Part shown: piece by piece, positions 1,808 to 37,930 of the stretch
Numbering within the stretch: position 1 is the first letter of the stretch
Layout: every line of letters begins with the position of its first letter
NCBI RefSeq assembly: GCF_018156225.1
Contig: NZ_JAGTAR010000013.1
Coordinates: 62,001-126,000 of the forward strand
Direction of reading: 5' to 3'
Length of the DNA: 64,000 nt
From: Carboxylicivirga sediminis
Lineage (GTDB): Bacteria; Bacteroidota; Bacteroidia; Bacteroidales; Marinilabiliaceae
Translations under genes and position numbers: made by a program
Notes under the pieces: generated by a model
Told to the model about the DNA's origin: nothing
What the model saw: the letters and a program-made list of their open reading frames with translations, nothing else
Database searches by the model: none

Positions 1808-4150
1808 TTATTGTATTCTGATATAGCCTTCATCAGGTAGTTCAAAAGCGACAACCTCACCATTTAACATGTACTTTCCTACTTGCCCAGGCTGCCCACT
1901 AATCATTGCGATAACAACTTGACCATTTTGCCACTTAATATCAACCACATAATTGCCCCTTGCTTTGAGTCCCTTGATAGATCCATTGCGCCAATTTTGT
2001 GGTAAAGCTGGCAATAACTCAATGACACCTGTATGCGACTGCAGTAACATTTCAGCAATACCTGCACATCCCCCCATATTACCATCTAATTGAAAGGGTG
2101 GATGAGCACATAACAGATTTGGATAACTGCCACCACCAGATAGCATATCGTACCCTTCATCTTGAGTAGGCTTTAATAAACGACGAAATAAGAGATAGGC
2201 ACGTTCTCCATCTTTCAAACGAGCCCAAAAGTTAACTTTCCAGGCCAGCGACCAGCCTGTTCCATTATCTCCCCTTGCATTTAAACTAACCTTAGCAGCT
2301 TCAGCTAATCTTGGTGTATCTTCAACCGTAATCTGTTTGCCCGGGTGAAGAGCATATAAATGAGAAACATGCCGATGTTTACTATTGGGGTCATCCACAT
2401 CTTCCTTCCATTCCTGAAGCTGATTCCATTTACCTATTTGCGGAGGGCAAATACGATCTCGAATACCAATGGCTTCTTTCATGAAATTTGCGTCCACATT
2501 AAGCTGTTCACATGCCAGAACACAATTGTTTAATAAGTCCCATGCAATCTGATGATCCATTGATGCTCCGGTAGATATTCCGCCATGCTCAGGTGAATAG
2601 GATGGCATTGAAACTAAGTTACCATCATTATCCTCAACCAGATAATCCATCCAAAACAAAGCAGCTTCCTTCATAATTGGATATCCTACTTCCTTTAAGA
2701 ATACCTTATCCTGAGTAAATTCAAAATGCTCCCATATATGCTGACATAACCAAGCCGCTCCGGCAGGAAAAAAGCCCCATGGAAGTCCCCAACCTTGTGC
2801 AGTGTAGCCAAATTGATTATTCATGGTATTAACAACCCATCCTCTGGCATTGAAATAATTCTGTGCTGTTACCTTACCTGGTTCAACAAGACTTTCCATA
2901 TAGGTAAAAAGAGGCAAATGACACTCGCTAAGATTCGTAACCTCAGCTGGCCAATACAACATTTGCTGGTTAATATTCATGTGATAATCACAAGCCCATG
3001 GAGGGTTTGTACTATTATTCCACTTTCCCTGCAGATTTAAAGGCATAGTACCCGGACGAGAGGCATTGATCATTAAATAGCGACTATATTGAAAGTAAAG
3101 GGATTCCAATCCTGGATCATTCACGCCCTGATTGTATTCAATTAACCTTTTGTCTGTAGGCACACTGTTTCGTTCTCTTTCTCCTCCTAATTCAATTTCT
3201 ACACGATTAAATAGGCTCTGATAATCCTTTAAATATGCATCGAAGATACTATTATAAGATTTACTAATAATAGACTTGACAACAGCTGTATTTTGACTAA
3301 CAAAATCATTTCCTTTATAATGAGGATATTCCATTATATAGTCTGTTGCTGCCGTATGATAAATTATTAATTCACGAGCATTTTTTACGGATATTACTCC
3401 TTCATCATACGCCGCTTCGCCGTCAGTATCGATAACCATGCATGTTTCAAAACTCATATTATTATCTGTAACAACACCTTGGTATCTGAAGATATTACCA
3501 GCAAATTCTTCTTTATACTTTTTATGTGGATTTACATATTCAATTGCATAATCAGTTTTTGAATCACATTTAAAACGATATACCAATACCTTATCCTGAT
3601 AAGATCCAAAAAAGGTTCTTTCATGCTTTACACCACCAGCCAGGTAATTAACATGTGCCAATCCTGTTGACAGGTCCAGCGTGCGAGAATAATCCCTAAC
3701 CCTATCACTTTGTTTGACTTTCACAAACACGTCCCCCATGGTTTGTTGAGCCCCATAATCACCGAAATCACATCCCTCTTTTTCATGAATAACTCCAGTT
3801 AAATGTTTTGAAGCCAAACGATGGGCATCCCTGTTTTGACCTTGCCTGAGAAGATTACGTATTTCTGGCAAATACTCAGATGCTCCTTTTTGATTACCAT
3901 AATTATATTTGGGATGAGAACCTGGTCCACCCGACCATAACGATTCCTCAGTAAATTGAATCTGCTCTGTATCAAACCCACCAAAAAACATGGCTCCCAT
4001 ATACCCATTACCAAATGGTAAGGCCTCTGTCATCCAGTTCTGAGCTGGTTCAGTATACCAAAGCTCTAGATTATCACCTTCTTTCTCTGTGCCTTTCATC
4101 TGAATTATTGTGAAAAGCATAAAGAGGCAAGTAAATAGCACTTGTTTCAT
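1808..4150 (-). CDS. GH95 alpha-L-fucosidase (or alpha-L-galactosidase)
   Basis: The product is about 780 aa with a signal peptide (MKQVLFTCLFMLFTIIQMKG), so it is periplasmic or surface exposed. I chose the ATG at 4150; a GTG at 4156 adds two residues. The family signatures are all present: the N-terminal block LPFGNGYMGAMFFGG, the central motif MNINQQMLYWPAE holding both Asn that prime the catalytic water (about N392 and N394), SPEHG with the general acid Glu (about E521), and QLDGNMGG with the activating Asp (about D689). GH95 enzymes invert alpha-1,2-linked L-fucose and sometimes L-galactose. It is the last gene of the PUL, 25 bp after the DUF6067-type gene, and its product would feed the fucose catabolic genes at 49-55 kb. 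Confidence 0.9.
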   Translation of the reverse strand: MKQVLFTCLFMLFTIIQMKGTEKEGDNLELWYTEPAQNWMTEALPFGNGYMGAMFFGGFDTEQIQFTEESLWSGGPGSHPKYNYGNQKGASEYLPEIRNLLRQGQNRDAHRLASKHLTGVIHEKEGCDFGDYGAQQTMGDVFVKVKQSDRVRDYSRTLDLSTGLAHVNYLAGGVKHERTFFGSYQDKVLVYRFKCDSKTDYAIEYVNPHKKYKEEFAGNIFRYQGVVTDNNMSFETCMVIDTDGEAAYDEGVISVKNARELIIYHTAATDYIMEYPHYKGNDFVSQNTAVVKSIISKSYNSIFDAYLKDYQSLFNRVEIELGGERERNSVPTDKRLIEYNQGVNDPGLESLYFQYSRYLMINASRPGTMPLNLQGKWNNSTNPPWACDYHMNINQQMLYWPAEVTNLSECHLPLFTYMESLVEPGKVTAQNYFNARGWVVNTMNNQFGYTAQGWGLPWGFFPAGAAWLCQHIWEHFEFTQDKVFLKEVGYPIMKEAALFWMDYLVEDNDGNLVSMPSYSPEHGGISTGASMDHQIAWDLLNNCVLACEQLNVDANFMKEAIGIRDRICPPQIGKWNQLQEWKEDVDDPNSKHRHVSHLYALHPGKQITVEDTPRLAEAAKVSLNARGDNGTGWSLAWKVNFWARLKDGERAYLLFRRLLKPTQDEGYDMLSGGGSYPNLLCAHPPFQLDGNMGGCAGIAEMLLQSHTGVIELLPALPQNWRNGSIKGLKARGNYVVDIKWQNGQVVIAMISGQPGQVGKYMLNGEVVAFELPDEGYIRIQ

Positions 4151-4175
4151 AAACACTTATTTTAATAAATTCTGT

Positions 4176-7145
4176 TTATTCGGAAATAATAATCATCCAC
4201 CCTTTTTTGGCCTCTATTGTAATAGTATCATCGACTCTAAAAGCCTGCGCTTTCTGAAAATCCTTTACTTCAGGTGCCATTAAGCTTACTTTTCCTTTAG
4301 CCAAATCCAAGCTATTCCAATCAATGTTTAATTGGCACTTTTGTGTTTTATCAGAAAAATTGCCCAAAGCCACTAAAATTTTACCATTCTTTTTATAAAC
4401 TGTTGCTTTCACATTCGAATTGTTGGTTGTGACAAATGGCTTCTTTTCCCAAAATCCAATCATTTCAGAAGTATGAATGCCAAAATCATCCCAAACTTTC
4501 CAGATAGGTCGAGGATCGCATAAGACTCCATCTGTCACCCAGGGATGTCGCACTGTCATGCCATAAAGCATGCCCAACCAACGGTTTCCTCCTCGGTGTA
4601 ACATATCACCCATTAATCCAAAAGGAATACCTGAAACTTCCACAAGCCAGTTCTCAGGAGGCATCTGATCATAATGAAAACTCTCACCGAACCATAATTT
4701 ATCCAGATAGGGGAAATACTCTGTATACTGTGTTGCAGGTCCCTTTGAAAAACCAGTATTTGAATGCAAATCAAGAATACACCCGGGTTTTTCTCTATCA
4801 AGTACTTTTCTCATGCGTTTTACAATACGTCTGTCATAAGAAACATCATCCAAATATAATCCGTCAATATCTACGTTACGCACCAGCCAGGCTAATCCTT
4901 CAATATAATAATTGTACCAACGAGAGTCTGATGGCGTATTAACAATAGAAGCATCTGCACTTTTTTCAGGGAAATACTGATACCATTGAGGATGATAACC
5001 ATCAATCAAGTGTTCACGCAACCAAGGGTAGCCACCTCCCTTACCATCACCCAGAATCTCATGTCCCAAACTACGTAAAGCCCATATTTCTGTGGTATAA
5101 TTTGTTAACTCCCTTACTGTATTATAGATCTTAACTTTCTGACCTTTTTCATGCATATCATTTATAAAGCCTTTCATCTCATCAACAGCTATAAATGGAT
5201 AGTTGATATGAGGATTATACTCATTGGCATGATGAACATTGATAATTTTAACACCTGCATCAAAGTCTTCTTGAGTAGGCATTGGAGCACCACCATTGTG
5301 ATAATAACGGTCAACAAACTGGCTTTCATAGTTAATTTTCTTGACAGGAGTCATTAGGAAAGCCCATTCAAAATCTATAGATTCACCTTTTTTAATAGTC
5401 CTTTTACCACTGTAGCAAATTGCTTTCACCTGTGATGTTTGTGTTTCTATTTTAAAACCACCTTTACCATCATTATCCCAACTCAAGGGGTATTCAGGCT
5501 GATAAAGATTTAACAATGGTCCGTTGTATTCACTACCGCGTAATTCACACCACATACCACCTTTAGCATCTCCAATCCAAAAACTATCATGTGGACCTTT
5601 CCACTTTGCCTGATGATTTTGTGGTACTTTACTTCCTGGTAATCCCATACCCATCATATAGCGAGCAATTGACTTTTTCAAGGGAATCTCCAATCGAACG
5701 TCGTCCAACTTTACGTCTTCAGTTGCAGTTAAGTTTATTTTGTAATGCATATATCCATCAGACTCCAGGGTACCTTCTGCTAGTACTTCAATACCAGCTA
5801 CATTATCTTCCCATCTGCCCTTCATTACACCTGCACTATTCTTAAGTACTTCTATATCATTCATTCCACTCAAACCGGCTTCTTGCTTTTGGGTTTTGAG
5901 TTTAAAAGCAATCGGCCCAGCTAATATCTCCGTTCCATACACCTGCATACTTTCTGGCATCCCATTCATATTCAGGCGAACGACTTTACCTGAACAATCG
6001 TACATGTAATCATTAATGGCTTTAATTGGCTCGTAACCACCAGTTGCTTCATCATCAATACCTAAAGTCGAGTTGAGCCACCTTAACCTAGAATGTCTCC
6101 ATGGTTCACTATCACCGCGATCGGCCAGCACCTCATCTTCAACTTTTATTTTAACTTTTGCTACCTGAGGTTTACAATTATCAGAAGTAACTATTACTTC
6201 TCCAATATAAACACCTGCTTTTGCTGTTTCTGGTATGTCAACGCCAATCCATAAAGCCTGTACCTTACCAGTTTCAACATCCACTGTTTTTGTAAACGTT
6301 TTTCCAAACGGATCAACACCACCAGTATTAAAACATGTCAGTTGATTACTACTAATTGAATGATTACCATTTTTTAAATCCGAGAACTGCACCTGTATGT
6401 TTTTAACATCTTTAGCTGAGGCATAAACACCTAATTGAAAAGCATAATATTCATTTTGCATTGCCTTTCCTTCAAAGTCAAGTCCTTTATCTTCGATAAT
6501 CCACTTCACAGGTATTTCATCCAGCATTCTAATCGGATCTTTTCTATCTTCTGAAAAGATTATATAATCGTCATTCTTATCAGCTAAAAATTTCGATTTT
6601 TCTGCTTTTGTAGGAATAAGTTCCATTGGATAGAAACTATCAAATTGGGTGCGGGACTGGATGGCTTCCACATTAGCATTTGGAAGTTGCTGAAGCACAC
6701 TACTATCAGAAAGCTTATTATCCTTCACCCAAGCTACTGATGCACTCTCTGGCCTTAAGTAACCCTTATTATAGAATCCATACTCCTCTTGTATTTTAAA
6801 AGGCGCATAATAGAAATAATAGGTTCCTTTTTTTTGAACAGGACCAAAAGCAATCTTACAGCGCTCATTATCCACTGCTATTCTATGAATATTTTTAATT
6901 GTGTCACCTGTTTCAGCATTTACAATAACAAACTTTTTCTTTTCTGGATTGGCATCATGACGACGCCAAAGCAGATCAAGTTTAACAACATCTGCAGGCG
7001 CATCAACCTGTATTACTGCGCGGTGATGACCATAATAATCAGCCCAAGGTGTTTTTGGTACTGAATATGGTATCTGCTCCACCTGACTTGTAACTGTGCA
7101 TTGTGTCAGTGCAATCAATGAAATCAATAAAATTAACTGTCTCAT
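4176..7145 (-). CDS. DUF6067-type putative glycoside hydrolase
   Basis: The protein has 989 aa with an N-terminal signal peptide. The first half (about residues 50-590) is beta-rich and looks like accessory and jelly-roll domains. The second half (about 600-930) reads like a TIM barrel, with strand-end motifs such as INVHHANEYNPHINYPF, VDIDGLYLDDVSYDRR and CILDLHSNTG. The Asp-Asp of LYLDDV and the Glu of KLWFGESFHYD are candidate catalytic residues by position only. From memory it matches the DUF6067 family of Bacteroidota PULs; the substrate is not known to me. It is translationally close to its neighbours (gaps of 39 and 25 bp) and is co-transcribed with GH2 and the GH43-like gene. Confidence 0.65.
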   Translation of the reverse strand: MRQLILLISLIALTQCTVTSQVEQIPYSVPKTPWADYYGHHRAVIQVDAPADVVKLDLLWRRHDANPEKKKFVIVNAETGDTIKNIHRIAVDNERCKIAFGPVQKKGTYYFYYAPFKIQEEYGFYNKGYLRPESASVAWVKDNKLSDSSVLQQLPNANVEAIQSRTQFDSFYPMELIPTKAEKSKFLADKNDDYIIFSEDRKDPIRMLDEIPVKWIIEDKGLDFEGKAMQNEYYAFQLGVYASAKDVKNIQVQFSDLKNGNHSISSNQLTCFNTGGVDPFGKTFTKTVDVETGKVQALWIGVDIPETAKAGVYIGEVIVTSDNCKPQVAKVKIKVEDEVLADRGDSEPWRHSRLRWLNSTLGIDDEATGGYEPIKAINDYMYDCSGKVVRLNMNGMPESMQVYGTEILAGPIAFKLKTQKQEAGLSGMNDIEVLKNSAGVMKGRWEDNVAGIEVLAEGTLESDGYMHYKINLTATEDVKLDDVRLEIPLKKSIARYMMGMGLPGSKVPQNHQAKWKGPHDSFWIGDAKGGMWCELRGSEYNGPLLNLYQPEYPLSWDNDGKGGFKIETQTSQVKAICYSGKRTIKKGESIDFEWAFLMTPVKKINYESQFVDRYYHNGGAPMPTQEDFDAGVKIINVHHANEYNPHINYPFIAVDEMKGFINDMHEKGQKVKIYNTVRELTNYTTEIWALRSLGHEILGDGKGGGYPWLREHLIDGYHPQWYQYFPEKSADASIVNTPSDSRWYNYYIEGLAWLVRNVDIDGLYLDDVSYDRRIVKRMRKVLDREKPGCILDLHSNTGFSKGPATQYTEYFPYLDKLWFGESFHYDQMPPENWLVEVSGIPFGLMGDMLHRGGNRWLGMLYGMTVRHPWVTDGVLCDPRPIWKVWDDFGIHTSEMIGFWEKKPFVTTNNSNVKATVYKKNGKILVALGNFSDKTQKCQLNIDWNSLDLAKGKVSLMAPEVKDFQKAQAFRVDDTITIEAKKGWMIIISE

Positions 7146-7184: not shown

Positions 7185-8843
7185 CTACTCATTCACAAAC
7201 ACCTCTCCGGTAATCTCTTCGATCGTTCTTTCATGTTCTGTAATTCTAACAATTAAGTGCCTCATCCCTTTTTCCAGTTTTTTATCCAACGGCAGGTTCA
7301 TAAGGATTTTCTCATAAGGTTCAATCTGCTTAATTGATCCAGAAACAAGTTCAACAATTCCATTTTTTGTATCTTCAAATACACTCAGTTTTGCTTCACA
7401 AGAGCTTTGTTGCCCAAAGTTTTGCACCTCAATCGATAAACTCATTTGATTATTATCATTTTGCACTTTTGGCAAACGAGCTGAAAGAGCTGGCTCCAAA
7501 TAGTCTACCCACGGTAAGCGTGCATAAGCAAATAATAACTGCCCTTTGGACATCTCACCAACAAGTTTAATAACAAAATTATCGTCTGTCACACCATTAC
7601 CCTGAGCATCAAAAACTAAAATTAGATCATTACCATCGATGCGAGAATCAATAACCTTACACCCGCCTCCAAAATTAACTTTCTCAGATGCACCTAAACG
7701 TAAACTTTCCAGCTTGATATCGGTATGAGGATTAAATCCTTCCTCAGCCATTATCTTTACTTTAATAGTTTTGGTTTGAGCATGAATCTTACTATTATCC
7801 AAAACAGTCATTAGTCGACCGACCGTTAGTGGAATACAGATATGCTTTGAACTGTGGTTATCATTGGCCAAATCGTTCCATTTAATGGTGTCAATAACTG
7901 CGAAGTGTGCCTGTGTTGCCCTGCCATATTCATCTTGCAACATCTTAATACGCTCATATTTAAACCAGTTTTCTTTTACGCCATCAGTATAAGTAGTTAT
8001 ACCCGGCATGTAGGCTTCACCCGGTTCAACCTTCCATTTTATTCCATCCTTCGAGCGAAGGTAGTATGCTATCCGTCCATACCAATCATTTACAATCATG
8101 TGATACTGAACATTGGTTTTCCAGATAACAGGATCTTCAAACCGTCCTTCAACAGAAGGGTAAGCGCTTTTCTGTGTTACCTGATTCCATGGTGATAAAC
8201 CTGTCTGACTTATCCAAACGCCACCGCCTCGGCACACCATTAAGTATGAACCGTCTTCCCGTTTAGCAAAAGTTAGATTTGATAAACCATCGTGCACATT
8301 TCTATCCCGACGATCGAATTGAAATTGCTTGTATTCCCATGGGCCATTTAACGAATCAGAAATGTAATATCCTCTAATTACATAAATTACATAACGACCA
8401 TCATTTAATTTATATAGTTCAGGATTATGGCCTTTACCAATAATTTGTTGTACAGTGTATGGCCCCAATGAGTTTGTTCCAATAGCATGAACCACTTCCG
8501 AATCGGGCCAAGCCATATGCCCCTTTTCGGCACTTTCAGGCCATCTACAAACAAACAAATGGTAAACACCCATATTATCTTTAATCGCATTACCTCCCCA
8601 ATAGGAATATTCATCCTCTTCTAATCCGTTATCAACGTATCGAGGAACCACATCACCAGCCCCCCAGGTATCTGCCGTAAGTTCTCCATTAGTTGGAATG
8701 GGCAAGAAGCGATCCATAAAGCGTCCTCCTTTAACAAGGCTCTTCCACTCCGCAGGCCGTTCGCGTTCAATAATTTGTGCGTCAACTGAAGCAATCAAAC
8801 TAAATAATATTACTGGTATCCACCAATTTCTTCTTAAAGTCAT
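7185..8843 (-). CDS. GH43-like five-bladed beta-propeller glycosidase
   Basis: About 552 aa from the ATG at 8843, which puts a normal signal peptide (MTLRRNWWIPVILFSLIASVDAQ) at the very N-terminus; an ATG at 8879 would add 12 residues. The first 350 residues carry propeller-type repeats: VVHAIGTNSLGPYTV, YVIYVIRGYYISDSLNGPWEY, FEDPVIWKTNVQYHMIVNDW and YYLRSKDGIKWK. These resemble the GH43/GH117-type propeller fold, with the Asp of FEDPV and the Glu next to it as plausible catalytic or structural residues. The last 170 residues form a beta-sandwich. I cannot assign a subfamily or substrate. It is encoded 38 bp downstream of the GH2 gene. Confidence 0.6.
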   Translation of the reverse strand: MTLRRNWWIPVILFSLIASVDAQIIERERPAEWKSLVKGGRFMDRFLPIPTNGELTADTWGAGDVVPRYVDNGLEEDEYSYWGGNAIKDNMGVYHLFVCRWPESAEKGHMAWPDSEVVHAIGTNSLGPYTVQQIIGKGHNPELYKLNDGRYVIYVIRGYYISDSLNGPWEYKQFQFDRRDRNVHDGLSNLTFAKREDGSYLMVCRGGGVWISQTGLSPWNQVTQKSAYPSVEGRFEDPVIWKTNVQYHMIVNDWYGRIAYYLRSKDGIKWKVEPGEAYMPGITTYTDGVKENWFKYERIKMLQDEYGRATQAHFAVIDTIKWNDLANDNHSSKHICIPLTVGRLMTVLDNSKIHAQTKTIKVKIMAEEGFNPHTDIKLESLRLGASEKVNFGGGCKVIDSRIDGNDLILVFDAQGNGVTDDNFVIKLVGEMSKGQLLFAYARLPWVDYLEPALSARLPKVQNDNNQMSLSIEVQNFGQQSSCEAKLSVFEDTKNGIVELVSGSIKQIEPYEKILMNLPLDKKLEKGMRHLIVRITEHERTIEEITGEVFVNE

Positions 8844-8917
8844 AATACTTTCTATATCTGTTTTATTTTTTAACTTCATTTAAATAGGCTTTGAATGAAT
8901 CTGTCAGCTATTCAACT

Positions 8918-12088
<3,171 letters not shown>

Positions 12089-13700: not shown

Positions 13701-13756
13701 ATTCCTTAATTTTATGTCTAGCTTTTCGTTTATCAACAACTCTTGATTTATGCCAA

Positions 13757-23166: not shown

Positions 23167-23173
23167 TATTCTC

Positions 23174-27249: not shown

Positions 27250-27350
27250 AGCAAACTGATATATTAACACTTTATACCCAAGGAGTAGCTTTAAACCTAA
27301 CGATAGGTGTAAAGTGAGATAATTGAAAATAATTACATCGAAAGGATGTT

Positions 27351-27387
27351 TAATCAAACTCACTACCCGAAGTAGTGAGTTTGATTA
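27351..27387 (-). terminator. Strong stem-loop behind the susCD block
   Basis: A perfect 16-bp stem (TAATCAAACTCACTAC against GTAGTGAGTTTGATTA) with a 5-nt loop lies 31 nt after the stop of the FN3-like lipoprotein gene. It has only a short A/T stretch behind it. Its position matches hairpins that let susCD mRNA accumulate above the downstream enzyme mRNA, as inferred from other PULs. Confidence 0.7.
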
Positions 27388-27417: not shown

Positions 27418-27861
27418 TTAATAGTCACTTAAATTATTACTTATTCTGGTTGGGTAACTGTAACCAACTATGCCATCCGCATTAATCGCATACATACGAA
27501 TGATGTATGCAGTATCTTTAACAGCGAACCCTTCAATAAGAGCAGTAACAGCACCAATTCCTGTTTCTTCAATTTCCCCAACAACCTTCACTGCATCACC
27601 GTCAAGTTCAGGAAATTGCATTTCTAACAAAGATTCGGTGGTCTTTAACTGCCACAATACTCCAACCTCCTGAATCGGAGCTCCCCCATCGGTATAAACA
27701 CGACATCCCACTTCTGCAGATGTTTCGGTTATAATAGGACTTTTACTCTCATCAAGTAATATATTGGGTCGCGATAATGTTGGTGCTTCAATATCTTCAT
27801 CGCAACTACTAAATGTAAGCAGGGAAAACACTGCAATAAATGTTAATATATATTTATACAT
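27418..27861 (-). CDS. Small FN3-like surface lipoprotein (SusE-position)
   Basis: The protein has 147 aa with a lipoprotein signal (LLTFSSC, Cys20). The mature part is a single FN3/Ig-like domain ending in the typical pattern DTAYIIRMYAINADGIVGYSYP. It is encoded 15 bp after susD, where PULs usually carry a glycan-binding SusE/SusF-type or spacer lipoprotein. It is much shorter than SusE, so a single binding or scaffolding domain is the most that can be claimed. Confidence 0.7.
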   Translation of the reverse strand: MYKYILTFIAVFSLLTFSSCDEDIEAPTLSRPNILLDESKSPIITETSAEVGCRVYTDGGAPIQEVGVLWQLKTTESLLEMQFPELDGDAVKVVGEIEETGIGAVTALIEGFAVKDTAYIIRMYAINADGIVGYSYPTRISNNLSDY

Positions 27862-29502: not shown

Positions 29503-32500
29503 TTAAAATTTAACGTTTACACCCATTGAAAATATTCTCGTCTGTGGATATTGCAGAGTATTTGTTGTAGTACTAGGCTTTTCAGGATCAAAGCCATAGC
29601 GCATTTTTGTCCATGTTAGTGCATTCTGTATATTTCCATATACACGAACATGAGAAACCCCAATACCTTCGAGCAAACGTTTTGGAATAGTATAACCTAG
29701 AGTTACATTTTTCAAACGCAGATAAGAAGCATCCTCCATGTAGTAATCTGAAACTATATTAAACCTGTTTGGCTCACTGTATAATCTTTGGATATTACTA
29801 TCTGGATTGTCTTCTGACCAAGCGTTACGATACCAAGCCCCAGTTGCAGCAGCTCCTCCATGAAAAGGGGCGGTGATCATTCCCTGATTAAGTGAATTAA
29901 CTCCAAATACGCCTTGGAAGAATAGTCCTAAATCCCAGTTGCGCCACCCCAAGTCAAGGTTACTCGAAAATACCCAATCGGGATAAGGTTTGCCCAATAA
30001 TGTTCTATCATCAGCTGTTATAACTCCATCTCCATTTAGATCAGCAAATTTGATATCTCCAGGTTGAGCAACCATACCAGCATAAGCATTACCAATCTCT
30101 GTATTAAGATGATTATCTATATCAGCTTGAGATCTATATAGTCCTTCCGTTTTAAATCCATAAAAAGAATTAAAAGGTTTACCTACTTCCCAAATTAAGT
30201 TATTGTCAAAAATTATAAAATCCTGACCACCTAAATCAGTGATCTCATTTTTAGTACTTGATGCGGTAACACTGGCTTTAATATCGAGTGCCTTATACTT
30301 TCCAACATAGGTTGCCATCATCTCTACTCCCCTATTCTCCATTGCTGCAGCATTTACAAATGGAGCCTCTGATAAACCTAGAGTACCTGACACTGGAAGT
30401 TGCATCAGAATATCCTTATTTGTTTTAACGAAGTAATCAAATGTGGCAGTAATCTTATTTTTAATAACTCCAATATCAAAACCCATATTTAATTGTTCTG
30501 AAGTCTCCCATGTGGTAGAACGATCTGCAAGCCTTGTAATTGCGGCAGCAGAATACAAGGTATTATTAAAATTATAAGTCAAATCAGAATTCATTCTATT
30601 ACTTGCAGCATAATAATCACCTATTGCTTCGTTTCCTAATTGCCCCCAAGAAGCTCTTAACTTCAAATTGGCCAACCAATCTACCGACTCAAGAAATGAT
30701 TCTTCTGATACACGCCAACCAATCGAAGCTGACGGGAAAGTACCCCATTTATCTTCAAACCTTGAACTACCATCTCGACGCACTGTTGCCTCCAGCATGT
30801 ATTTATTTAAGATATTTAAATTCAAACGTCCATAATATGATAGCCATGACCCTTCATATGCTGAAGAACCATTTTTCTGAGTCGCTGGATCTCCAATGCC
30901 CATACTTGGTACATTAACTGGAAAATTAGCTCTACTCATAGAATACTGCTTATAACTTAATTCACGAGCTTCAAAACCAGCTAAAGCATTTAAATCAACA
31001 CTCTCTCCTATTTTTGTAGAATAATTTATCTGTGAATCAGTCATCTTGGTTAAGGATGTTTCTCTATAGTTCTCCAAACTTGCCTGAGTTGGAGTGCCCT
31101 TTTGCAACTGACCATTATCTTGTAATGAATAAAAAGTCAAAGAAGGATTCCATATCTCCAATTCATTAGATGAACTATACAAATTATAAGAAGCATCAAT
31201 TTTTAAGCCCTTAAGAACTTCCAGGCTAGCTGCCATTCGGATATTTATAGGTGTCGATTGCGTTTGTCTATATCCTCCTTCTTCCTTTGCGGCCCAATTA
31301 CTTCCATACCCAGTATAGCCAACAGTTGGTATATATTTTCGTACAGTCGACGGAGCAACATAAACATTATAAATTGCATTATCCATACCTGCAACCACAT
31401 CATTTGTTGTCTGATCATAACCGGACAAATTAAGATCTAATCGTAACTTATCTTTGAGAAAATAGGAAGTGAAATTAGATCGAATAGTCAGCTTCTTAGT
31501 ATCATTTCCATCCACAATACCGTCCTGATTAAGGTACCCTACAGAAACAGAATACAGGAGGTTATCTGAGCCACCAGATATATTAACATGATTATCATAA
31601 ATCGCTGCCGATCTAAATGTATCAGAAATCCAATCATAATTAGTTGGATACATCATTGGGTCGACATTGTTTCTATAATTATACATGTATTCTTCATTAT
31701 ACCAGGTAGGGTATTGACCATTATTCGAATTTGCTTCAGCTTGTGCACGTAACTCGAGGTACTCGACGCCTTTCAGGACATCCGGCATTTCCGTCACCTG
31801 TTGTACACCGGCATATCCTTTGTAGTCTACTTTCATTTGACCAGACTTACCTTTTTTCGTTGTAATTAATATTACACCGTTAGATGCTCTGTTACCATAT
31901 ATGGCAGTTGATGCTGCATCCTTTAGAATTGAAATATTCTCCAAATCCTTAGGATTTACATCTGCAAGATCGCCTACCATCCCATCAATAATTACCAATG
32001 GCTTACTATTACCAAAAGTTCCAATACCACGAATTAGTATTTGGGCATCATCATTTCCAGGCTGTCCTGAAGTTTGCGAGATAAAGGCACCAGCAACCTG
32101 ACCTTGAAGTGCTGCACTTGTATTGGTTAAAGGCCTGCTTTGCAATCCTTCTGGCATTACAGATTCTACCGCCCCGGTAAGGTTGGCCTTTTTCTGAGTA
32201 CCATAACCAACAACAACAACTTCATCCAATCCTGTTGACTCCTCAACTAAAGTAATATTGATATTTGTTCGATTGGCAACTTGAATAGTTTGCGTATTAA
32301 AGCCAATAAAAGAAAATGTTAAGGCGGATTCCCCTGAACTAACTTCAATAGAATAGCTACCATCGATTCCTGTAATAACTCCATTCATTCGATTTGCTTG
32401 TTCAAAAACATTAGCACCGGGAATAGGTTCACCATTAGAATCTGTAACAACCCCTTTCACAGTTATTTGAACTTGCTGATCATTGATTATAGTTTCATTA

Positions 32501-32865
32501 TTTTCTTTAGGTAAGAAAATAATGAAATCATCCTGAATTCGATATACAAATTCTGACCCCCTCAATACTTCATCCAAAAGAGTAGTAACCTCCTCTTGTC
32601 GTGAATTTATAGTCACAGTTCTTCCTATATCTATCATATCAGAACTATACACAAATCGATAATCACACTGATTCTCGATAGCTTCAAGCACTTCAACAAC
32701 TGACGCGTTTTTAACATTTAAATTTACTTTGCTTCGTTGTGCATTAACACCGGCTGAAAGATGTAAACTGAACACGAGTAAGAAAAATGATAAGATTTTC
32801 ATGACCCTTAGGATTTTTTTCACCTCTGAAGTCATCGGAGGTTTAATAATTCGCCATTTTTTCAT
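29503..32865 (-). CDS. SusC-type TonB-dependent transporter with STN signalling domain
   Basis: The protein has 1120 aa. A signal peptide (about residues 22-42) is followed by an STN domain (about 48-115), a carboxypeptidase-regulatory-like domain (130-215), a plug (220-335) with EVVVVGYGTQKKANLTGAV and LVIIDGMVGDLADVNPKDLENISILKD split over it, and the 22-strand barrel ending in a terminal Phe (GVNVKF). It imports oligosaccharides across the outer membrane together with SusD. The STN domain, rare in the simplest SusC proteins, signals to FecR, matching the adjacent fecR and ECF sigma genes. Two alternative Met codons lie in the first 22 residues. Confidence 0.96.
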   Translation of the reverse strand: MKKWRIIKPPMTSEVKKILRVMKILSFFLLVFSLHLSAGVNAQRSKVNLNVKNASVVEVLEAIENQCDYRFVYSSDMIDIGRTVTINSRQEEVTTLLDEVLRGSEFVYRIQDDFIIFLPKENNETIINDQQVQITVKGVVTDSNGEPIPGANVFEQANRMNGVITGIDGSYSIEVSSGESALTFSFIGFNTQTIQVANRTNINITLVEESTGLDEVVVVGYGTQKKANLTGAVESVMPEGLQSRPLTNTSAALQGQVAGAFISQTSGQPGNDDAQILIRGIGTFGNSKPLVIIDGMVGDLADVNPKDLENISILKDAASTAIYGNRASNGVILITTKKGKSGQMKVDYKGYAGVQQVTEMPDVLKGVEYLELRAQAEANSNNGQYPTWYNEEYMYNYRNNVDPMMYPTNYDWISDTFRSAAIYDNHVNISGGSDNLLYSVSVGYLNQDGIVDGNDTKKLTIRSNFTSYFLKDKLRLDLNLSGYDQTTNDVVAGMDNAIYNVYVAPSTVRKYIPTVGYTGYGSNWAAKEEGGYRQTQSTPINIRMAASLEVLKGLKIDASYNLYSSSNELEIWNPSLTFYSLQDNGQLQKGTPTQASLENYRETSLTKMTDSQINYSTKIGESVDLNALAGFEARELSYKQYSMSRANFPVNVPSMGIGDPATQKNGSSAYEGSWLSYYGRLNLNILNKYMLEATVRRDGSSRFEDKWGTFPSASIGWRVSEESFLESVDWLANLKLRASWGQLGNEAIGDYYAASNRMNSDLTYNFNNTLYSAAAITRLADRSTTWETSEQLNMGFDIGVIKNKITATFDYFVKTNKDILMQLPVSGTLGLSEAPFVNAAAMENRGVEMMATYVGKYKALDIKASVTASSTKNEITDLGGQDFIIFDNNLIWEVGKPFNSFYGFKTEGLYRSQADIDNHLNTEIGNAYAGMVAQPGDIKFADLNGDGVITADDRTLLGKPYPDWVFSSNLDLGWRNWDLGLFFQGVFGVNSLNQGMITAPFHGGAAATGAWYRNAWSEDNPDSNIQRLYSEPNRFNIVSDYYMEDASYLRLKNVTLGYTIPKRLLEGIGVSHVRVYGNIQNALTWTKMRYGFDPEKPSTTTNTLQYPQTRIFSMGVNVKF

Positions 32866-32938: not shown

Positions 32939-32940
32939 TT

Positions 32941-33915
32941 TTATCTAATCAAACTAATCCTTTTTTCATCAAGAACCACCTTGTATGCTGTTCTTTCTTT
33001 AGTTATAACAATAGGCATTGATAACTGTATTACATCTAATATATCTGCTAGTGTATCATCTTTAACTGTTAATGATACCTTAAGATTCCTTAATGAATCA
33101 TTAGCATCCAATTCGAATTTCACTCCATACCTCAATCCCAATTCAACGAAGAATTTATCTAACGCAATATTCTTAACTTGTAAGTCTTCCTTTGACCAAA
33201 CTATGTTTTCCCATGAAGTTACCTTATCTACATGTAGTTCATTCAATGAATAGGTATAACTTGCTAATTCACCAGGTACAAGGATTTGTTTAAAATCCTT
33301 ATTCACATCATGTGTAAGCATCACACTACCCTCTTCCAGTAAAACATCAACATTCTCTGAATCTGAATTGACATTAAATTTAGTACCCAAAACCTCAATA
33401 TTTATCGGCCCACTATTGACAATAAACTTCAAATTATCAGGTCTAATATCAAAGAAAGCTTCGCCCTCCATGCTTACTCGCCGACTAAAAATAAATTGAA
33501 GTGGATTATACGAAAGTGTAGTATTCTCATTCAATATTACTTTGCTACTATCAGGCAAAGTGACTTCCAATTTCTGTTTTAACCTAGTTTGCACCAGAAC
33601 ATCCTGATTCATCGCTGTACTGTAAAACAAGATAGTAGTAACACATAAAGCTGTTATAACAACTGAAGCAACAGTTAACAGAAATATTTTCAGCTTTCTA
33701 TTGGAATATCTCTTCAAAACAACTGTCTTTTCAAACTCCTTCCAAGCATTGTCTGTTCGAAAATGATAAACTTTCTTTGAATCCAACTTCCACTTCTCTT
33801 TTTGCAGCTGAAAGTATTCCCTGTTTTTGTTTGAAGCTCTTATAAACTTCAGCAGTTCAGATTGTTCATCTGGCGATGCAGTTCCTTGTAAATATTTGGT
33901 GATTTTGCTTTCCAT
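32941..33915 (-). CDS. FecR-family anti-sigma factor
   Basis: The protein has 324 aa. A cytoplasmic N-terminal region (1-72) is followed by one membrane span (about 75-98), the periplasmic FecR domain (about 110-210, with VTLPDSSKVILNENTTLSYN and VSMEGEAFFDI) and a C-terminal DUF4974-type domain (about 250-320). It holds its sigma factor inactive until the STN domain of the loaded SusC contacts it. It is encoded 155 bp after the sigma gene and 75 bp before susC. Confidence 0.93.
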   Translation of the reverse strand: MESKITKYLQGTASPDEQSELLKFIRASNKNREYFQLQKEKWKLDSKKVYHFRTDNAWKEFEKTVVLKRYSNRKLKIFLLTVASVVITALCVTTILFYSTAMNQDVLVQTRLKQKLEVTLPDSSKVILNENTTLSYNPLQFIFSRRVSMEGEAFFDIRPDNLKFIVNSGPINIEVLGTKFNVNSDSENVDVLLEEGSVMLTHDVNKDFKQILVPGELASYTYSLNELHVDKVTSWENIVWSKEDLQVKNIALDKFFVELGLRYGVKFELDANDSLRNLKVSLTVKDDTLADILDVIQLSMPIVITKERTAYKVVLDEKRISLIR

Positions 33916-34070: not shown

Positions 34071-34688
34071 CTATAGCATTGGAAGATTAATACAACCAAT
34101 CAAAATAGCCGGAATTAAAGATTGCCCTGGATATTTACTTTCGATATGAATGCGTATATGCTTCTTTGCATTAGAAATGTGTCTTTCGATAGCCTTAACT
34201 GATATATTAAGCTCCTCGGCAACCTCTTTTTGCAAACGTCCTTCAAATTTACACATCTCAAACACTTCCCGGCACTTTGGAGATAATTGTTCACACGCCT
34301 CTTTCAACTCTCGCTGTATAAGATACTCTATAGGCTCTTCCTCAAATCCATTAAAGTCATTTTCGCTTAAAAACTGCACATCTTTTATTTCTTTGGCGAT
34401 ACAATTTAAGTGCCTATTATGTATTTCTTTATCCCGAAGATAATTTATACAGCGATTACGAATTGACTTAAAAACAAAAGATTCTATTGACTTTTCCAAT
34501 CTCAGTTCACATCTATTATTCCAAATATTAATAAACGAATCTTGAACTATGTCCTTTACATCATCTTCATCTTTAACAAACAACGAAACATAATTAAAAA
34601 GTCGCATGTATGAATTTCGATAAAAGTGTTCAAATGCATTGACATCACCTTTTCTAATCAACTCGAACAATAGCTTATCTACAGACAT
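34071..34688 (-). CDS. ECF sigma-70 factor (Bacteroidota PUL type)
   Basis: The protein has 205 aa. Region 2 is visible around FEHFYRNSYMRLFNYVSLFV and DIVQDSFINIWNN, and region 4 around LSPKCREVFEMCKFEGRLQ and VAEELNISVKAIERHISNA. It directs RNA polymerase to PUL promoters once released by the FecR protein encoded next to it. The C-terminal tail after residue 185 is hydrophobic, as is common in this group. An 80-bp gap separates it from the DUF5107 gene. Confidence 0.93.
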   Translation of the reverse strand: MSVDKLLFELIRKGDVNAFEHFYRNSYMRLFNYVSLFVKDEDDVKDIVQDSFINIWNNRCELRLEKSIESFVFKSIRNRCINYLRDKEIHNRHLNCIAKEIKDVQFLSENDFNGFEEEPIEYLIQRELKEACEQLSPKCREVFEMCKFEGRLQKEVAEELNISVKAIERHISNAKKHIRIHIESKYPGQSLIPAILIGCINLPML

Positions 34689-34768
34689 ATCAATTACGTA
34701 AGATATTATAACTATAGGCTTTCAATCTATTAAACACAATATTTTTCAAAGAAGGCTCCAAAAGACTG

Positions 34769-37700
34769 CTAATTTTGAACAAACTTATTGATAAGACCTA
34801 ATTGCAATAATTTGGTATAAAAATCTTTGGTAATAAAAAACTCTACATCAACAAACTTAGTATCATATGCCTGAACTGTTGTATTAGAACTTAAAATCTG
34901 AGCTTCTAACCGCATGGCATCGCTTCCCGCATATACATTTTTCACCCACTGAATATATAAATTATCTGGTTCTTTTTTAATTGCATCTTCAATAATCGCA
35001 TTCGCTTCGTATTGATTATTCCGACTATGCACTAATACTTGCCACAATAGTTTTGAACTTTCGTTAAGGTATTGTGGTGTTTGATGCCCCATTACCTTCT
35101 CATAACAAGCCTTTGCTTCCTCCTTCTTACCAAGGTTTTCATTAGCTATAGCTATCAGAAAATCATCAAGCCTCTCATCAACATCATAATGTTTACCAAC
35201 ACCTAAATTTAATGGCCATAACTTAGCCTTATTGGCATAATCTATTACGTAGCTGTATTGTCCTCTTTCAAGCGCCCTCATAGCTAAACGCAAACATACC
35301 TCATGGTAAATATTTCTTCCTTCTGTAGCCCCCTCATAAGGCATTACGTCAAAGTTCTCCAAGAATGAAAGACATTTATCAAACTTTTCTTGTTTCATAA
35401 GAGCGTTGGCATACAGCATTCCAAATTTGGCATTTTCAGGATAACGCTTGTGATACTTCTTAGCCAAATTCTCTGCCCTAACAAGATCTTTGCTTGCTAT
35501 TGCATTCTCTATGAGCAATAAATTCAACCGCCAATCGTCACTATCAATTTCTAACGCACGCTTTAAACACGCCTGCTTTACACCTTCATCACCTACAAAT
35601 AAATTAATCTTGGACAGATAATATGCCACAAAATCAGGCTCCTCGTCACATGCTACAAAACACTGCCTTGCCTCTTCTAAACATCCTATATGCCAATTAA
35701 TTAAACCTGCATAATAAGACATTTGCCAACTAAACTTCTCCTTCAAGAGGATGTTTATTACTTTTAAAGTTTCTTTTCGATGAGGAAAGACGTGTGCTGC
35801 GGATAATTTGCTTAACTGTTCTAAAAGCTCTTTTCTGTTTTCAGGATTTAAATAAGCCAACCACAATTTAATTATAGGATGGTCAACCTTATATGAGTCT
35901 AATATTTGTATTGCTTCTTTTTTTTGACCAACCTGATCGTATCTAATTGCCAAATCTAAAACTGTCTCGAAAGGCAGTTCATTCGAGATATTGCTTAACC
36001 ACTGTTCATTGACCTTTTCTCCGTCATAGTGTTCTTCAAAAGCAACAAAGGCATTGCAGGCATCAAGATTATCTAATTTTTCTAAAGTCTCATTATACTT
36101 CGACAGATCATTATTAAGGCGACTGGCAATAACCACCAGCTCCAACGCTCTAGTGTTAGTACCATTAAATAACAATGCCTTATTAGCAAATCGTATTGTC
36201 TCATTGAGTTGCTGCTCTTGCAAACATATCTCCGCTAATTTTGTGTAAGCTGCAAAACGATACTCAGGAGACTGAGCTGAAATTGAAAACCCACTTTTAG
36301 CTTCATCCAACTTGCCTAAATCTTTATTGACCATCCCATAAATATAATTTCCCAATGGGTCATATGTATCAATAGCAAGTGCTTGGAGGCTATATTCCAG
36401 AGCAGTTTCATACTTAGCCTTTCGATAATTCCCAAGTGCTAATCTGCCAACCACAGGTAACAAAGTGGACTCTTTTACATAGGCAGATTCATAAGCCTCC
36501 ATAGCTTCTTCATAACGTCGTTGTTTTTCTAACTCCAACCCTTTAACATACAACCCATAAGCACTATTCCAGTTGAATTCTTTTAGTGGAACAGTTGGGC
36601 GTTCCAAAAACTGTTCGACACTTTTTGAATCGTATTTTAATAGCTGTCTGCCTATTTCAATAGTAAAATCGCTATTTATATCAATTTTTATTTTTCGCTT
36701 ATACAATTGCAGTGGATTTAAATTAACAGCTTCCTCAAAAAGTTTAACCCCACCGCTTGAAATCACTATATCCGTTTCTAGTTTTTGAAGAGGGCTCAAA
36801 TAAAGTTCAAAACCATCAGCTTCTTGTTTCACATTTAACACTCCATATTCGGAAGCAGCAACCATGCCCTTGGTTTCTTTTAATGGGAACCATAATTCGC
36901 GCATTATATCAGAATCGTAAGGCATAAACTCTCTATGTTTAAATGGTGTGAATGTACTGCTATGGGCCGCTTGGTTAAATAATTTTCCTGCCTGATATTC
37001 GATGTACTGTCCATCTCCATCCGACAATAAATCTTCCCAAATCATCCCCTGATCTGAAAGCCCCCAAATCCAGATTTTTTTACCTGGCTTATCATCATAA
37101 TCGGCATAATGTCCAAAACCAAAATTATCATCATGCCAATAGCCCCCGAAAATATTTGCATAGGCATTCAATACATGGTACGATTTATAAATTCCAAAAT
37201 TATTTTGTTCATACATGGCAATGTGTTTGCCATTATCGTATGGCCAATCTCCAACTTCACCTCCATGGCCTATTCTTTTGTTCCCCGGATAGATAAACTC
37301 AAGATTCCCATTGGCTTTTGCTGCCGCATTCATCCAATGGTAATAGGTAATGGGTACATCAGAAGTATTATGCCAAGAGGCAATTGTTTCAAAGTAAGCT
37401 TTATCTTTGTCAAGCTTTATCTCCACATTCCATCGGGAACCTGATGGTAGATCAATTGCTCCTACTACACAAGAAACGCTACCATCTTCATTTTCTTTAA
37501 GAATATAATCCACAGGTGTGGCACATGTTGGTATATGCCCGATATCGCCAAAGTTATATTCTAATCCTCCAGAAGACCAGGCACCACGCATTGCTACATC
37601 TCTGAACTTAACACTATGATTGTAATACAAAAACTCTTTCCCTGTCGATTTTTCAATTGCACCCCAAATTTTCCCGCCAATATCTGGGCAAACGAACACT

Positions 37701-37930
37701 TTAACAAAATCATTTTCAAGCACAACCATCTTCCATTCCTTTACAGCTCCATCTTTCTCGTAACCATCAAACCTAAAATAAGGATATATCCGATCCGGAT
37801 TAACAACCGGATTTGGATCATAAAATGAATAAGTATTCATTGCAATCCATTGTTCACTTATGGTTGCCTTTTGGGCTATATTAACTGAAGCTACACTTAA
37901 CATGGCTATTAAAACTAAAAATGATTTCAT
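34769..37930 (-). CDS. DUF5107 domain protein with TPR repeats
   Basis: The protein has 1053 aa with a signal peptide (residues 1-19). Residues about 50-360 form the DUF5107 domain, a mutarotase-like beta-sandwich: VKVFVCPDIGGKIWGAIEKSTG, GLEYNFGDIGHIPTCATPVDY, TYYHWMNAAAKAN and HREFMPYDSDIMRELWFP are characteristic. Residues about 440-1000 contain many TPR-type helices (YEEAMEAYESAY, ALEYSLQALAIDTYDPLGNY, RAENLAKKYHKRYPENAKFGMLYANAL). Such proteins accompany PULs, and the fold suggests sugar binding plus protein scaffolding, but no activity is known to me. It is the first gene of the minus-strand PUL, and its stop codon lies 80 bp before the sigma gene. Confidence 0.8.
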   Translation of the reverse strand: MKSFLVLIAMLSVASVNIAQKATISEQWIAMNTYSFYDPNPVVNPDRIYPYFRFDGYEKDGAVKEWKMVVLENDFVKVFVCPDIGGKIWGAIEKSTGKEFLYYNHSVKFRDVAMRGAWSSGGLEYNFGDIGHIPTCATPVDYILKENEDGSVSCVVGAIDLPSGSRWNVEIKLDKDKAYFETIASWHNTSDVPITYYHWMNAAAKANGNLEFIYPGNKRIGHGGEVGDWPYDNGKHIAMYEQNNFGIYKSYHVLNAYANIFGGYWHDDNFGFGHYADYDDKPGKKIWIWGLSDQGMIWEDLLSDGDGQYIEYQAGKLFNQAAHSSTFTPFKHREFMPYDSDIMRELWFPLKETKGMVAASEYGVLNVKQEADGFELYLSPLQKLETDIVISSGGVKLFEEAVNLNPLQLYKRKIKIDINSDFTIEIGRQLLKYDSKSVEQFLERPTVPLKEFNWNSAYGLYVKGLELEKQRRYEEAMEAYESAYVKESTLLPVVGRLALGNYRKAKYETALEYSLQALAIDTYDPLGNYIYGMVNKDLGKLDEAKSGFSISAQSPEYRFAAYTKLAEICLQEQQLNETIRFANKALLFNGTNTRALELVVIASRLNNDLSKYNETLEKLDNLDACNAFVAFEEHYDGEKVNEQWLSNISNELPFETVLDLAIRYDQVGQKKEAIQILDSYKVDHPIIKLWLAYLNPENRKELLEQLSKLSAAHVFPHRKETLKVINILLKEKFSWQMSYYAGLINWHIGCLEEARQCFVACDEEPDFVAYYLSKINLFVGDEGVKQACLKRALEIDSDDWRLNLLLIENAIASKDLVRAENLAKKYHKRYPENAKFGMLYANALMKQEKFDKCLSFLENFDVMPYEGATEGRNIYHEVCLRLAMRALERGQYSYVIDYANKAKLWPLNLGVGKHYDVDERLDDFLIAIANENLGKKEEAKACYEKVMGHQTPQYLNESSKLLWQVLVHSRNNQYEANAIIEDAIKKEPDNLYIQWVKNVYAGSDAMRLEAQILSSNTTVQAYDTKFVDVEFFITKDFYTKLLQLGLINKFVQN

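Follow-up and report, generated by a model that had tools for sequence, protein, structure and literature searches.

A SusC/SusD locus of Carboxylicivirga sediminis that may serve the use of a fucosylated, possibly lipid-linked glycan

The locus at positions 1808-37930 of the window (the whole stretch of 64,000 nucleotides of Carboxylicivirga sediminis DNA that was analysed) raises the question of which glycan it serves, and of what a GH5 enzyme might be doing there among a set of exo-glycosidases. An earlier note, made from the sequence alone, had proposed a PUL at this position with two GH95s, a GH89, a GH20, a GH2, a GH5, SusC/SusD and a sigma/FecR pair, and all of these were found when its 17 minus-strand ORFs were scanned against Pfam and NCBIfam (E up to 0.001). 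The 17 ORFs, a conserved neighbour and the fucose genes of the window are as follows.

34769..37930, minus strand: DUF5107 and TPR protein that opens the conserved block (PF17128, E 2e-115; 67% identity in C. mesophila)
34071..34688, minus strand: ECF sigma factor of the Bacteroidota type (TIGR02985, above cut-off; 66% in C. mesophila)
32941..33915, minus strand: FecR anti-sigma factor (PF04773/PF16344; 53% in C. mesophila)
29503..32865, minus strand: SusC/RagA TonB-dependent transporter (TIGR04056, 887 bits; 91% in C. mesophila)
27877..29502, minus strand: SusD-like lipoprotein (PF07980, E 1.1e-51; 94% in C. mesophila)
27418..27861, minus strand: 147-aa putative lipoprotein after SusD, of no recognised family (lipobox-like FSSC by eye; 89% in C. 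mesophila)
24382..27249 (listed ORF to 27363; likely ATG start 27249), minus strand: 993-aa GH129/GH101-like protein (profile and Foldseek)
23174..24172, minus strand: 332-aa protein, putatively mutarotase-like by eye (no Pfam or NCBIfam match; 69% in C. mesophila)
20869..23241, minus strand: GH95b, divergent GH95-like putative lipoprotein (PF22124, E 2.3e-53)
18221..20647, minus strand: DUF6259 putative lipoprotein (PF19773, E 3.8e-14; absent from the C. mesophila locus)
15964..18042, minus strand: GH5 of sterylglucosidase type with a GH5 C-terminal domain and a putative N-terminal membrane anchor (by eye)
13757..15931, minus strand: GH89, alpha-N-acetylglucosaminidase family (NAGLU domains PF05089/PF12972/PF12971; 88% in C. 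mesophila)
12123..13760, minus strand: GH20, beta-hexosaminidase family (PF00728, E 1.1e-106)
8918..12085, minus strand: GH2, LacZ-type beta-galactosidase family (PF02836/PF02929; NF052611 984.7 bits, narrowly missing the cut-off of 999)
7185..8879, minus strand: 564-aa secreted protein, putatively propeller-like by eye (no Pfam or NCBIfam match)
4176..7145, minus strand: PF19543 protein (1257 bits) with a GH123-type N-terminal domain, a mutarotase-like domain and a predicted TIM-barrel region
1808..4156, minus strand: GH95a (PF22124, E 1.6e-170)
747..1565, minus strand: LytTR membrane regulator next to the block and conserved with it (PF04397; 75% in C. mesophila)
49085..50377, minus strand: class II aldolase, FucA-like (PF00596)
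50431..51735, minus strand: FucP, L-fucose permease (TIGR00885, 544.8 bits, cut-off 280.4)
51799..53271, minus strand: FucK, L-fuculokinase (TIGR02628, 575.1 bits, cut-off 470.9)
53351..55138, minus strand: FucI, L-fucose isomerase (TIGR01089, 1055.8 bits, cut-off 850)

The locus has the composition of a PUL, with adjoining SusC and SusD, glycoside hydrolases and a regulator of its own, and it is conserved as a block. In C. mesophila 16 of the 17 ORFs, the GH5 included, are colinear with 53-94% protein identity, DUF6259 being the sole gene without a counterpart, so the grouping is not due to chance. Sulfatase, sialidase, glycopeptidase and lyase models match none of the 17 ORFs, nor was any lipid-metabolism gene recognised among them in the Pfam/NCBIfam scans. 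The earlier statement that no sulfatase is present therefore stands for these ORFs, although a phosphodiesterase/sulfatase-superfamily gene lies directly left of the block and true sulfatases adjoin related GH5 genes at three other loci (L012, L126 and L131), the first of which has a GH5, a sulfatase and a second GH5.

The exo-glycosidases give an outline of the likely substrate. GH95a has intact NIN, SPE and LDGN motifs of presumed function in this family, and GH95b, with its domain matched, has DLN and LEGN in place of NIN and LDGN, a motif set shared with the GH95 of a gammaproteobacterial locus (L018). The GH89 contains three NAGLU domains. Judged by family membership, alpha-GlcNAc, beta-HexNAc and beta-Gal would be the targets of the GH89, GH20 and GH2, respectively. 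Fucose as a component of the glycan, as the earlier note had supposed, is strongly supported by the two GH95s, by FucU (fucose mutarotase) 2.2 kb left of the window, and by FucP, FucK, FucI and the FucA-like aldolase at 49085-55138, so that fucose genes flank the PUL on both sides. The top model for the aldolase is OxoTetrPhDc, followed by L-fuculose-P aldolase, all under cut-off. The controls for fucose linkage are rough and fucP is above cut-off in 50 of 71 family genomes; its mere presence is therefore ordinary and only its position beside the GH5 is informative.

Several further proteins of the block, namely the GH129/GH101-like, PF19543, 564-aa, DUF6259, 332-aa and 147-aa proteins, had escaped the earlier note. 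With a profile of 6 relatives of the 993-aa protein, which has no Pfam match, the best PDB entry is an alpha-N-acetylgalactosaminidase (5wzn, E 1.5e-11), matched only at positions 290-426, which are part of the barrel; next come designed TIM barrels (2.3e-10) through repeated short matches. In Foldseek 10 of its 11 top rows are named GH101/EngBF (E down to 3.3e-8, TM 0.13-0.15, from a poor model of pLDDT 48.7). Residues D623 and E671 are invariant and have putative functional roles. The PF19543 protein (model pLDDT 54.6) aligns with the GH123 enzyme 5fqe over 192-358 (VIA Z 17.6, rmsd 2.8, 146 aligned), and such matches are confined to its N-terminal part, the barrel region of the model being of low confidence; with FpGalactosaminidase 8x1b the Z is 14.4 over 371 aligned positions, at an rmsd of 28.1. 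Given the quality of the models, the fold matches of both proteins serve as leads only. No credible PDB sequence match was obtained for the 564-aa protein and no usable one for DUF6259. Counting the genome under study, 3 of 247 class genomes have the 993-aa protein and 5 have the PF19543 protein; the 564-aa protein occurs in 3 of 247 phylum genomes, and DUF6259 relatives were found in its own genome alone among 247 class genomes.

The GH5 bears on how the glycan may be attached. It had been described as endoglycoceramidase-related, which is correct at the level of the family, but its nearest solved relatives are the fungal sterylglucosidases SglA (8exd, 427 bits) and Sgl1 (7lpo, 313 bits), with endoglycoceramidase II far behind at 53 bits. 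SglA of Aspergillus and Sgl1/EGCrP2 of Cryptococcus belong to GH5 subfamily 12, and Sgl1 has an enclosed, Y-shaped hydrophobic cavity that receives the sterol. The likeness to them, which is one of sequence, extends over most of the protein, and all 11 residues checked against Sgl1 are identical, including the equivalents of the two catalytic Glu, the glucose-site residues and the capping Trp584. In the portions available of two papers (PMC8497620, PMC10128061) this Trp reportedly excludes substrates that carry more than one sugar, and the cap is described as absent from bacterial endoglycoceramidase II. Although the protein shares the GH5 and C-terminal domains with endoglycoceramidases I and II, the low score and the retained Trp led us to reject the possibility that it is an endoglycoceramidase; it is predicted to be a sterylglucosidase-type enzyme with a pocket for one glucose. 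The window GH5 differs from the fungal enzymes in being bacterial and putatively membrane-anchored, and its gene shares a SusCD locus with those of exo-acting glycan hydrolases.

It is also one of many, as a search returned 206 related stretches, 80 of which were kept, and these establish a bacterial branch of the type. In an alignment of 86 rows, 8 of which are truncated readings and some of which represent one contig twice, the capping position is Trp in 79 and a gap in 7, that is, Trp in every filled row; the acid position has Glu in 81, a gap in 4 and Ser in 1, and the nucleophile position Glu in 79, a gap in 6 and Arg in 1. The sterylglucosidase papers, as far as their available text goes, term the enzyme fungus-specific, and the bacterial branch makes this distinction testable by simple assays.

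A closer endoglycoceramidase relative does occur nearby. Just left of the window and 7.3 kb from the block, a GH5 gene for a putative lipoprotein (L009:12875-14482) gives 113.7 bits with endoglycoceramidase II and 50.3 with SglA, the reverse of the in-locus GH5; endoglycoceramidase is thus the nearer relative of this protein and not of the other. The arrangement of FucU and this gene beside the block is the same in C. mesophila. The sterylglucosidase type is present in 6 of 71 family genomes, all 6 of which also have the endoglycoceramidase type, as against 4 of the 65 others (Fisher 1.5e-6, with kinship ignored). The association rests on two genera: within g1 it is 3/3 against 2/11 (p 0.027) and within g288 3/3 against 0/1 (p 0.25).

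Gene neighbourhoods elsewhere are partly in agreement. Genomes G630 and G633 have GH5, FucU and FucP side by side, and their endoglycoceramidase loci contain SusC and a sulfatase, that of G630 also a PI-PLC. Locus L014 combines a SusC fragment, SusD, a PKD protein, an endoglycoceramidase-type GH5, a GH29, an AraC-like gene and a sterylglucosidase-type GH5, and L018, from a gammaproteobacterial MAG, has the GH5 with oxidoreductase, dehydratase and hydrolase genes, FucP and its GH95. However, among 83 loci with this GH5, FucU or FucP was seen in 3, GH29 in 1 and a separate endoglycoceramidase-like GH5 in 2, so most copies are without a fucose or endoglycoceramidase link. The plasmid contexts of Rhizobium and Sphingobium lend no support to a lipid or fucose link, and neither do those of Chloroflexota, with FAD oxidoreductases and FGGY kinases below the fuculokinase cut-off. 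On the Rhizobium plasmids the GH5 adjoins sugar ABC transporter and kinase genes, which suggests small soluble glucosides as substrates of that branch.

We tentatively favour, at somewhat less than an even chance, a PUL directed at an animal-type glycan that is fucosylated and contains HexNAc and Gal, most likely linked to a lipid through beta-glucose, as in a glycosphingolipid or steryl glycolipid. The earlier note had offered blood-group, mucin O-glycan or glycolipid chains. The neighbourhoods favour a lipid-linked chain over the other two, although the in-locus GH5 is of sterylglucosidase type and not an endoglycoceramidase, and the GH129/GH101-like protein keeps O-glycans as an option. The genes present, their synteny, the conserved residues, the fucose genes and the joint occurrence of the two GH5 types were observed; activities, cellular locations, the order of action and attachment to a lipid are inferred. 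The substrate would be sensed by the sigma/FecR pair, with induction of SusC/SusD and import. Alpha-L-fucose might be removed by the GH95s, alpha-GlcNAc by the GH89, beta-HexNAc by the GH20 and beta-Gal by the GH2, with the GH129/GH101-like and PF19543 proteins possibly taking alpha-GalNAc or Gal-type caps. The putatively membrane-anchored sterylglucosidase-type GH5 could then take the last glucose off the aglycone, while the endoglycoceramidase-type putative lipoprotein may release whole chains from ceramide at the surface, and the freed fucose would pass to FucU, FucP, FucI, FucK and the FucA-like aldolase. A bolder and more doubtful proposal is that both GH5 types, the exo-glycosidases, SusCD and the L-fucose pathway form one glycolipid-utilisation island in which fucosylated glycolipids are eaten down to the bare lipid. 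Against attachment to a lipid stand the many GH5 copies without such neighbours, the lack of a recognised lipid-metabolism gene among the 17 ORFs, and the 4 genomes that have the endoglycoceramidase type without the other. Neither the window genome nor G618/C. mesophila gave a match to neutral ceramidase (PF04734), which also counts against it; the family was found in 4 of 71 family genomes, being 2 of the 6 with the sterylglucosidase type (G632, G633) and 2 of the 65 others.

Of the other readings, fucosylated protein O-glycans, such as marine-animal mucin-like glycoproteins with blood-group-like caps, are less likely. GH95, GH89, GH20 and GH2 together are a set known from mucin degradation, the 993-aa protein might take the core alpha-GalNAc, and the GH123-type domain of the PF19543 protein is consistent with this, as is its FpGalactosaminidase match, but for the high rmsd. 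The GH5 would then have to act on an unrelated glucoside, which sits poorly with its conservation in the block and its association with endoglycoceramidase-type GH5s and fucose genes, and the absence of sialidase, sulfatase and glycopeptidase matches among the 17 ORFs also counts against it. Sialidases, sulfatases or glycopeptidases are common in mucin O-glycan PULs, if not strictly required. The resemblance to gut Bacteroides mucin and host-glycan PULs lies in the ECF sigma/FecR pair, SusCD, GH95, GH89, GH20 and GH2; the window locus departs from them in its marine genus, the sterylglucosidase-type GH5, the L-fucose catabolism alongside and the lack of a sialidase or sulfatase match. Gastric mucin, which had been suggested as an inducer, is an improbable natural substrate since the genus includes marine-sediment members, according to the part available of PMC12325347. 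A mammalian-gut mucin PUL was considered and rejected, since among named relatives that have the block the closest is C. mesophila.

A bacterial or algal exopolysaccharide or capsule containing fucose or L-galactose, HexNAc and Gal is unlikely. GH95 enzymes can also act on L-galactose, and the GH5, whose clade occurs beside sugar ABC transporters in Rhizobium, could be a plain beta-glucosidase; the scarcity of fucose or endoglycoceramidase neighbours at most GH5 loci would fit, since those beside this block would be incidental. The linkage recurs, however, in separate lineages, and no lyase model matches the 17 ORFs. Algal polymer degradation has been predicted for the genus (PMC12325347, in the part available), which speaks for such a substrate. 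Less probable still is a substrate from marine invertebrates in the form of a soluble saponin (a steroidal or triterpenoid glycoside) or a steryl glycoside, in which the GH5 would sever the bond between sugar and aglycone. The sterylglucosidases are its best solved relatives and the residues are conserved, but HexNAc-acting enzymes are better suited to glycan chains, the endoglycoceramidase neighbours indicate ceramide lipids, and no steroid-degradation gene was recognised among the scanned window ORFs. Sphingobium gives the saponin role no support, as the available part of the tomatine paper (PMC10653915) names GH3, GH39, GH78 and GH106 and not GH5.

The known targets of PULs are polysaccharides and glycoproteins, and a SusCD locus tied to glycolipid-cleaving GH5s would broaden the range of their harvest and offer a way to study how glycolipids are turned over in marine sediment. 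If the proposal of a glycolipid-utilisation island is true, it would describe a SusCD system for membrane glycolipids and assign a role to a bacterial sterylglucosidase-type enzyme. In the literature, at the level of titles and abstracts, no PUL was found described that includes a sterylglucosidase or an endoglycoceramidase. The Marinilabiliaceae endoglycoceramidase loci L126 and L131, together with L014, resemble the window locus in combining SusC and an endoglycoceramidase-type GH5, with sulfatase/PI-PLC or GH29, but are without its exo-glycosidase set in the stretches examined. As far as the available part of PMC12325347 allows, the present locus may well be among the 2,154 Marinilabiliales PULs of that study.

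The GH5 enzyme inside the locus (15964-18042) has the domain pair common to endoglycoceramidases in a family scan, and to that extent its description in the earlier note as endoglycoceramidase-related stands; its nearest solved relatives, however, lie elsewhere. Against all solved structures Aspergillus SglA is the top match (427 bits) and Cryptococcus Sgl1 the second (313 bits), with endoglycoceramidase II far lower at 53 bits. When a one-residue offset in chain numbering is allowed for, the catalytic, glucose-site and capping-Trp residues of Sgl1 are identical at 11 of 11 positions in the structure-match alignment. Across 86 aligned bacterial rows, eight of them truncated readings and with some contigs present twice, the residue counts are W 79 and gap 7 for the capping Trp; E 81, gap 4 and S 1 for the acid Glu; E 79, gap 6 and R 1 for the nucleophile; and L 77, V or M 2 and gap 7 for Leu458. 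Because of the SglA and Sgl1 matches and these conserved residues, the enzyme is best read, from its sequence, as a glucosidase that would act on one glucose attached to an aglycone. An endo-acting enzyme is disfavoured by the higher scores of SglA and Sgl1 over endoglycoceramidase II and by the same residues.

A second GH5 lies just left of the window and, among solved structures, matches endoglycoceramidase II best (113.7 bits; SglA 50.3). Between this endoglycoceramidase (EGCase)-type gene and the locus is a FucU with 78% identity to that of another GH5 locus (L015), which scores over the L-fucose mutarotase cut-off. The order EGCase-type GH5, FucU, LytTR, block is the same in Carboxylicivirga mesophila.

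Features in and around the locus.
L009:12875-14482 (left of window), EGCase-type GH5
747-1565, LytTR regulator
1808-37930, minus strand, block of 17 ORFs
38254-47789, minus strand, metabolic cluster
47948-48664, GntR regulator adjoining the metabolic cluster
49085-55138, right of block, FucA-like aldolase, FucP, FucK and FucI (curated family models)

FucP, FucK and FucI exceed their curated cut-offs and the FucA-like aldolase falls below. Since L-fucose genes thus flank the locus on both sides, the earlier proposal that fucose is a released sugar gains support. The metabolic cluster, which also adjoins the block in C. mesophila, encodes a fructose-6-P aldolase/transaldolase-like protein, zinc ADH, SDR, a PHP-domain protein and 2-oxoacid dehydrogenase E1, E3 and E2. 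A type I phosphodiesterase/sulfatase-superfamily gene (L125:726-1586) lies between FucU and the locus and extends into the first bases of the window. Some 16-20 kb to the left of where the window starts there is a further sigma/FecR/SusC set (L009:3-4359), whose SusC has 32% identity to that of the block. The genome has another EGCase-type GH5 (G000:C67:79266-80816; 45% to the locus-side copy), as does C. mesophila elsewhere.

We read the locus as one that harvests a fucosylated HexNAc/Gal chain, and tentatively suggest that this chain is lipid-linked, is trimmed by exo-enzymes and loses its final glucose to the GH5. This could well be so, and is weakened by three observations: family scans recognised no lipid-related gene among the 17 block ORFs, neutral ceramidase has no match in the window genome or that of C. 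mesophila, and the same GH5 clade adjoins sugar ABC transporters in Rhizobium. The substrate might instead be protein O-glycans, which we consider rather unlikely, or a polysaccharide, which is improbable; a saponin or steryl glycoside as such, although matching the GH5 type, seems slightly less probable still. On the Rhizobium plasmids (L133, L134) the relatives (about 35%) adjoin kinase genes (glycerate kinase; DUF4147) as well as the transporters, and these neighbours hint that small soluble glucosides may be the substrate in that branch. Of the 71 family genomes, 4 have neutral ceramidase, and two of those (G632, G633) also carry the GH5.

Evidence from other genomes bears on the lipid-linked reading in both directions. 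The sterylglucosidase-type GH5 is present in six of the 71 family genomes and the EGCase type in ten, all six being within those ten (Fisher p 1.5e-6, kinship ignored); the co-occurrence is 3/3 vs 2/11 in genus g1 (p 0.027) and 3/3 vs 0/1 in genus g288 (p 0.25). In the 395-genome phylum sample the in-locus GH5 was found in two genomes, one being the window genome itself (E up to 1e-30). FucU and then FucP directly follow the sterylglucosidase-type GH5 in G630 and G633, whose EGCase loci combine a sulfatase with SusC and a protein judged SusD-like by eye, the G633 EGCase gene being broken up by masked bases. The G630 EGCase locus additionally has a second GH5 and a Ca-dependent phosphoinositide phospholipase C (L126:4281-5309), the latter between the sulfatase and that GH5. 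FucU adjoins GH5 in L017, which appears to be the G632 contig. Both GH5 types and a GH29 fucosidase form a single run in a Carboxylicivirga sp. (L014, apparently the G622 contig), in the order SusC fragment (by eye), SusD, PKD protein, EGCase-type GH5, GH29, AraC-like (by eye), sterylglucosidase-type GH5. A locus labelled Flavobacteriaceae (L012) carries GH5 together with a sulfatase and another GH5; the latter shares the domain pair and is termed EGCase-like at family level only. In a gammaproteobacterial MAG (L018), GH5 is accompanied by aldo/keto reductase, amidohydrolase, altronate-type dehydratase, SDR, FAH-family hydrolase, FucP and GH95 genes, the enzymes of which resemble a non-phosphorylating L-fucose pathway.

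Against this, such neighbours are few among the 83 GH5 loci surveyed (E up to 1e-12), many of which are short (3-22 kb) and three of which are fragments of a single genome: FucU or FucP in three (L015, L017, L018), GH95 in three (L011, L018, L038), a separate EGCase-like GH5 in two (L012, L014) and GH29 in one (L014). None of these genes was found in the Chloroflexota-labelled loci of the survey, and FucP is ordinary in the family (over cut-off in 50 of 71 genomes). An Anaerolineaceae locus (L078:4954-9862) has a glycerophosphate-oxidase-like protein, an FAD-linked oxidase and an FGGY kinase, then the same GH5.

PULs are already known as a kind of system. No description of one combining both GH5 types was found in the open-access literature searched, mostly by titles and abstract starts. 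A Marinilabiliales survey counts 2,154 PULs and may include the window locus without comment (PMC12325347).

The window genome is 5.8 Mb (window at 62001-126000 of contig C38), and the block runs on the minus strand from 37930 to 1808. Family scans of its 17 ORFs recovered every gene named previously and matched none to a sulfatase model, in agreement with the absence claimed. Sixteen of the ORFs and the LytTR regulator are colinear in C. mesophila, a member of the Marinilabiliaceae and, within the same genus, the closest genome with the locus.

Identity of the minus-strand block proteins to their C. mesophila counterparts.
SusD, 94% (protein identity)
SusC, 91%
147-aa lipoprotein, 89%
GH89, 88%
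PF19543 protein (4176-7145), 86%
GH95b (20869-23241), 82%
GH95a (1808-4156), 78%
993-aa protein (24382-27363), 77%
564-aa protein (7185-8879), 77%
in-locus GH5 (15964-18042), 76%
GH20, 72%
GH2, 72%
332-aa protein, 69%
DUF5107 protein, 67%
ECF sigma factor, 66%
FecR, 53%

The DUF6259 gene (18221-20647, between GH5 and GH95b) has no counterpart in the C. mesophila locus, and its protein no relatives outside its own genome among 247 class genomes. The 993-aa protein is present in 4 of 71 family genomes, and the 564-aa secreted protein, which has no family, in 3 of 247 phylum genomes, its own counted.

The best profile match of the 993-aa protein is the alpha-N-acetylgalactosaminidase 5wzn, a GH129 enzyme (E 1.5e-11, over part of the barrel only), followed by designed TIM barrels (2.3e-10, via repeated short matches) and, more weakly, the 3,6-anhydro-D-galactosidase 5opq (4.4e-5); its weak model gives GH101/EngBF in 10 of the 11 top Foldseek rows, where the TM-scores are low (0.13-0.15). 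Residues 192-358 of the PF19543 protein resemble GH123 enzymes in structure (Z 17.6, rmsd 2.8, 146 aligned) and in sequence profile, and are followed by a mutarotase-like domain (e.g. Z 15.4, rmsd 3.1, 203 aligned); the barrel region of the protein is modelled at low confidence. Alpha-GalNAc or Gal-type activities would be guesses for both proteins. In GH95b two conserved motif positions are replaced, and since the replacements are identical in C. mesophila and L018 it looks like a GH95 subtype rather than decay; the L018 enzyme has the same DLN/SPE/LEGN motif set.
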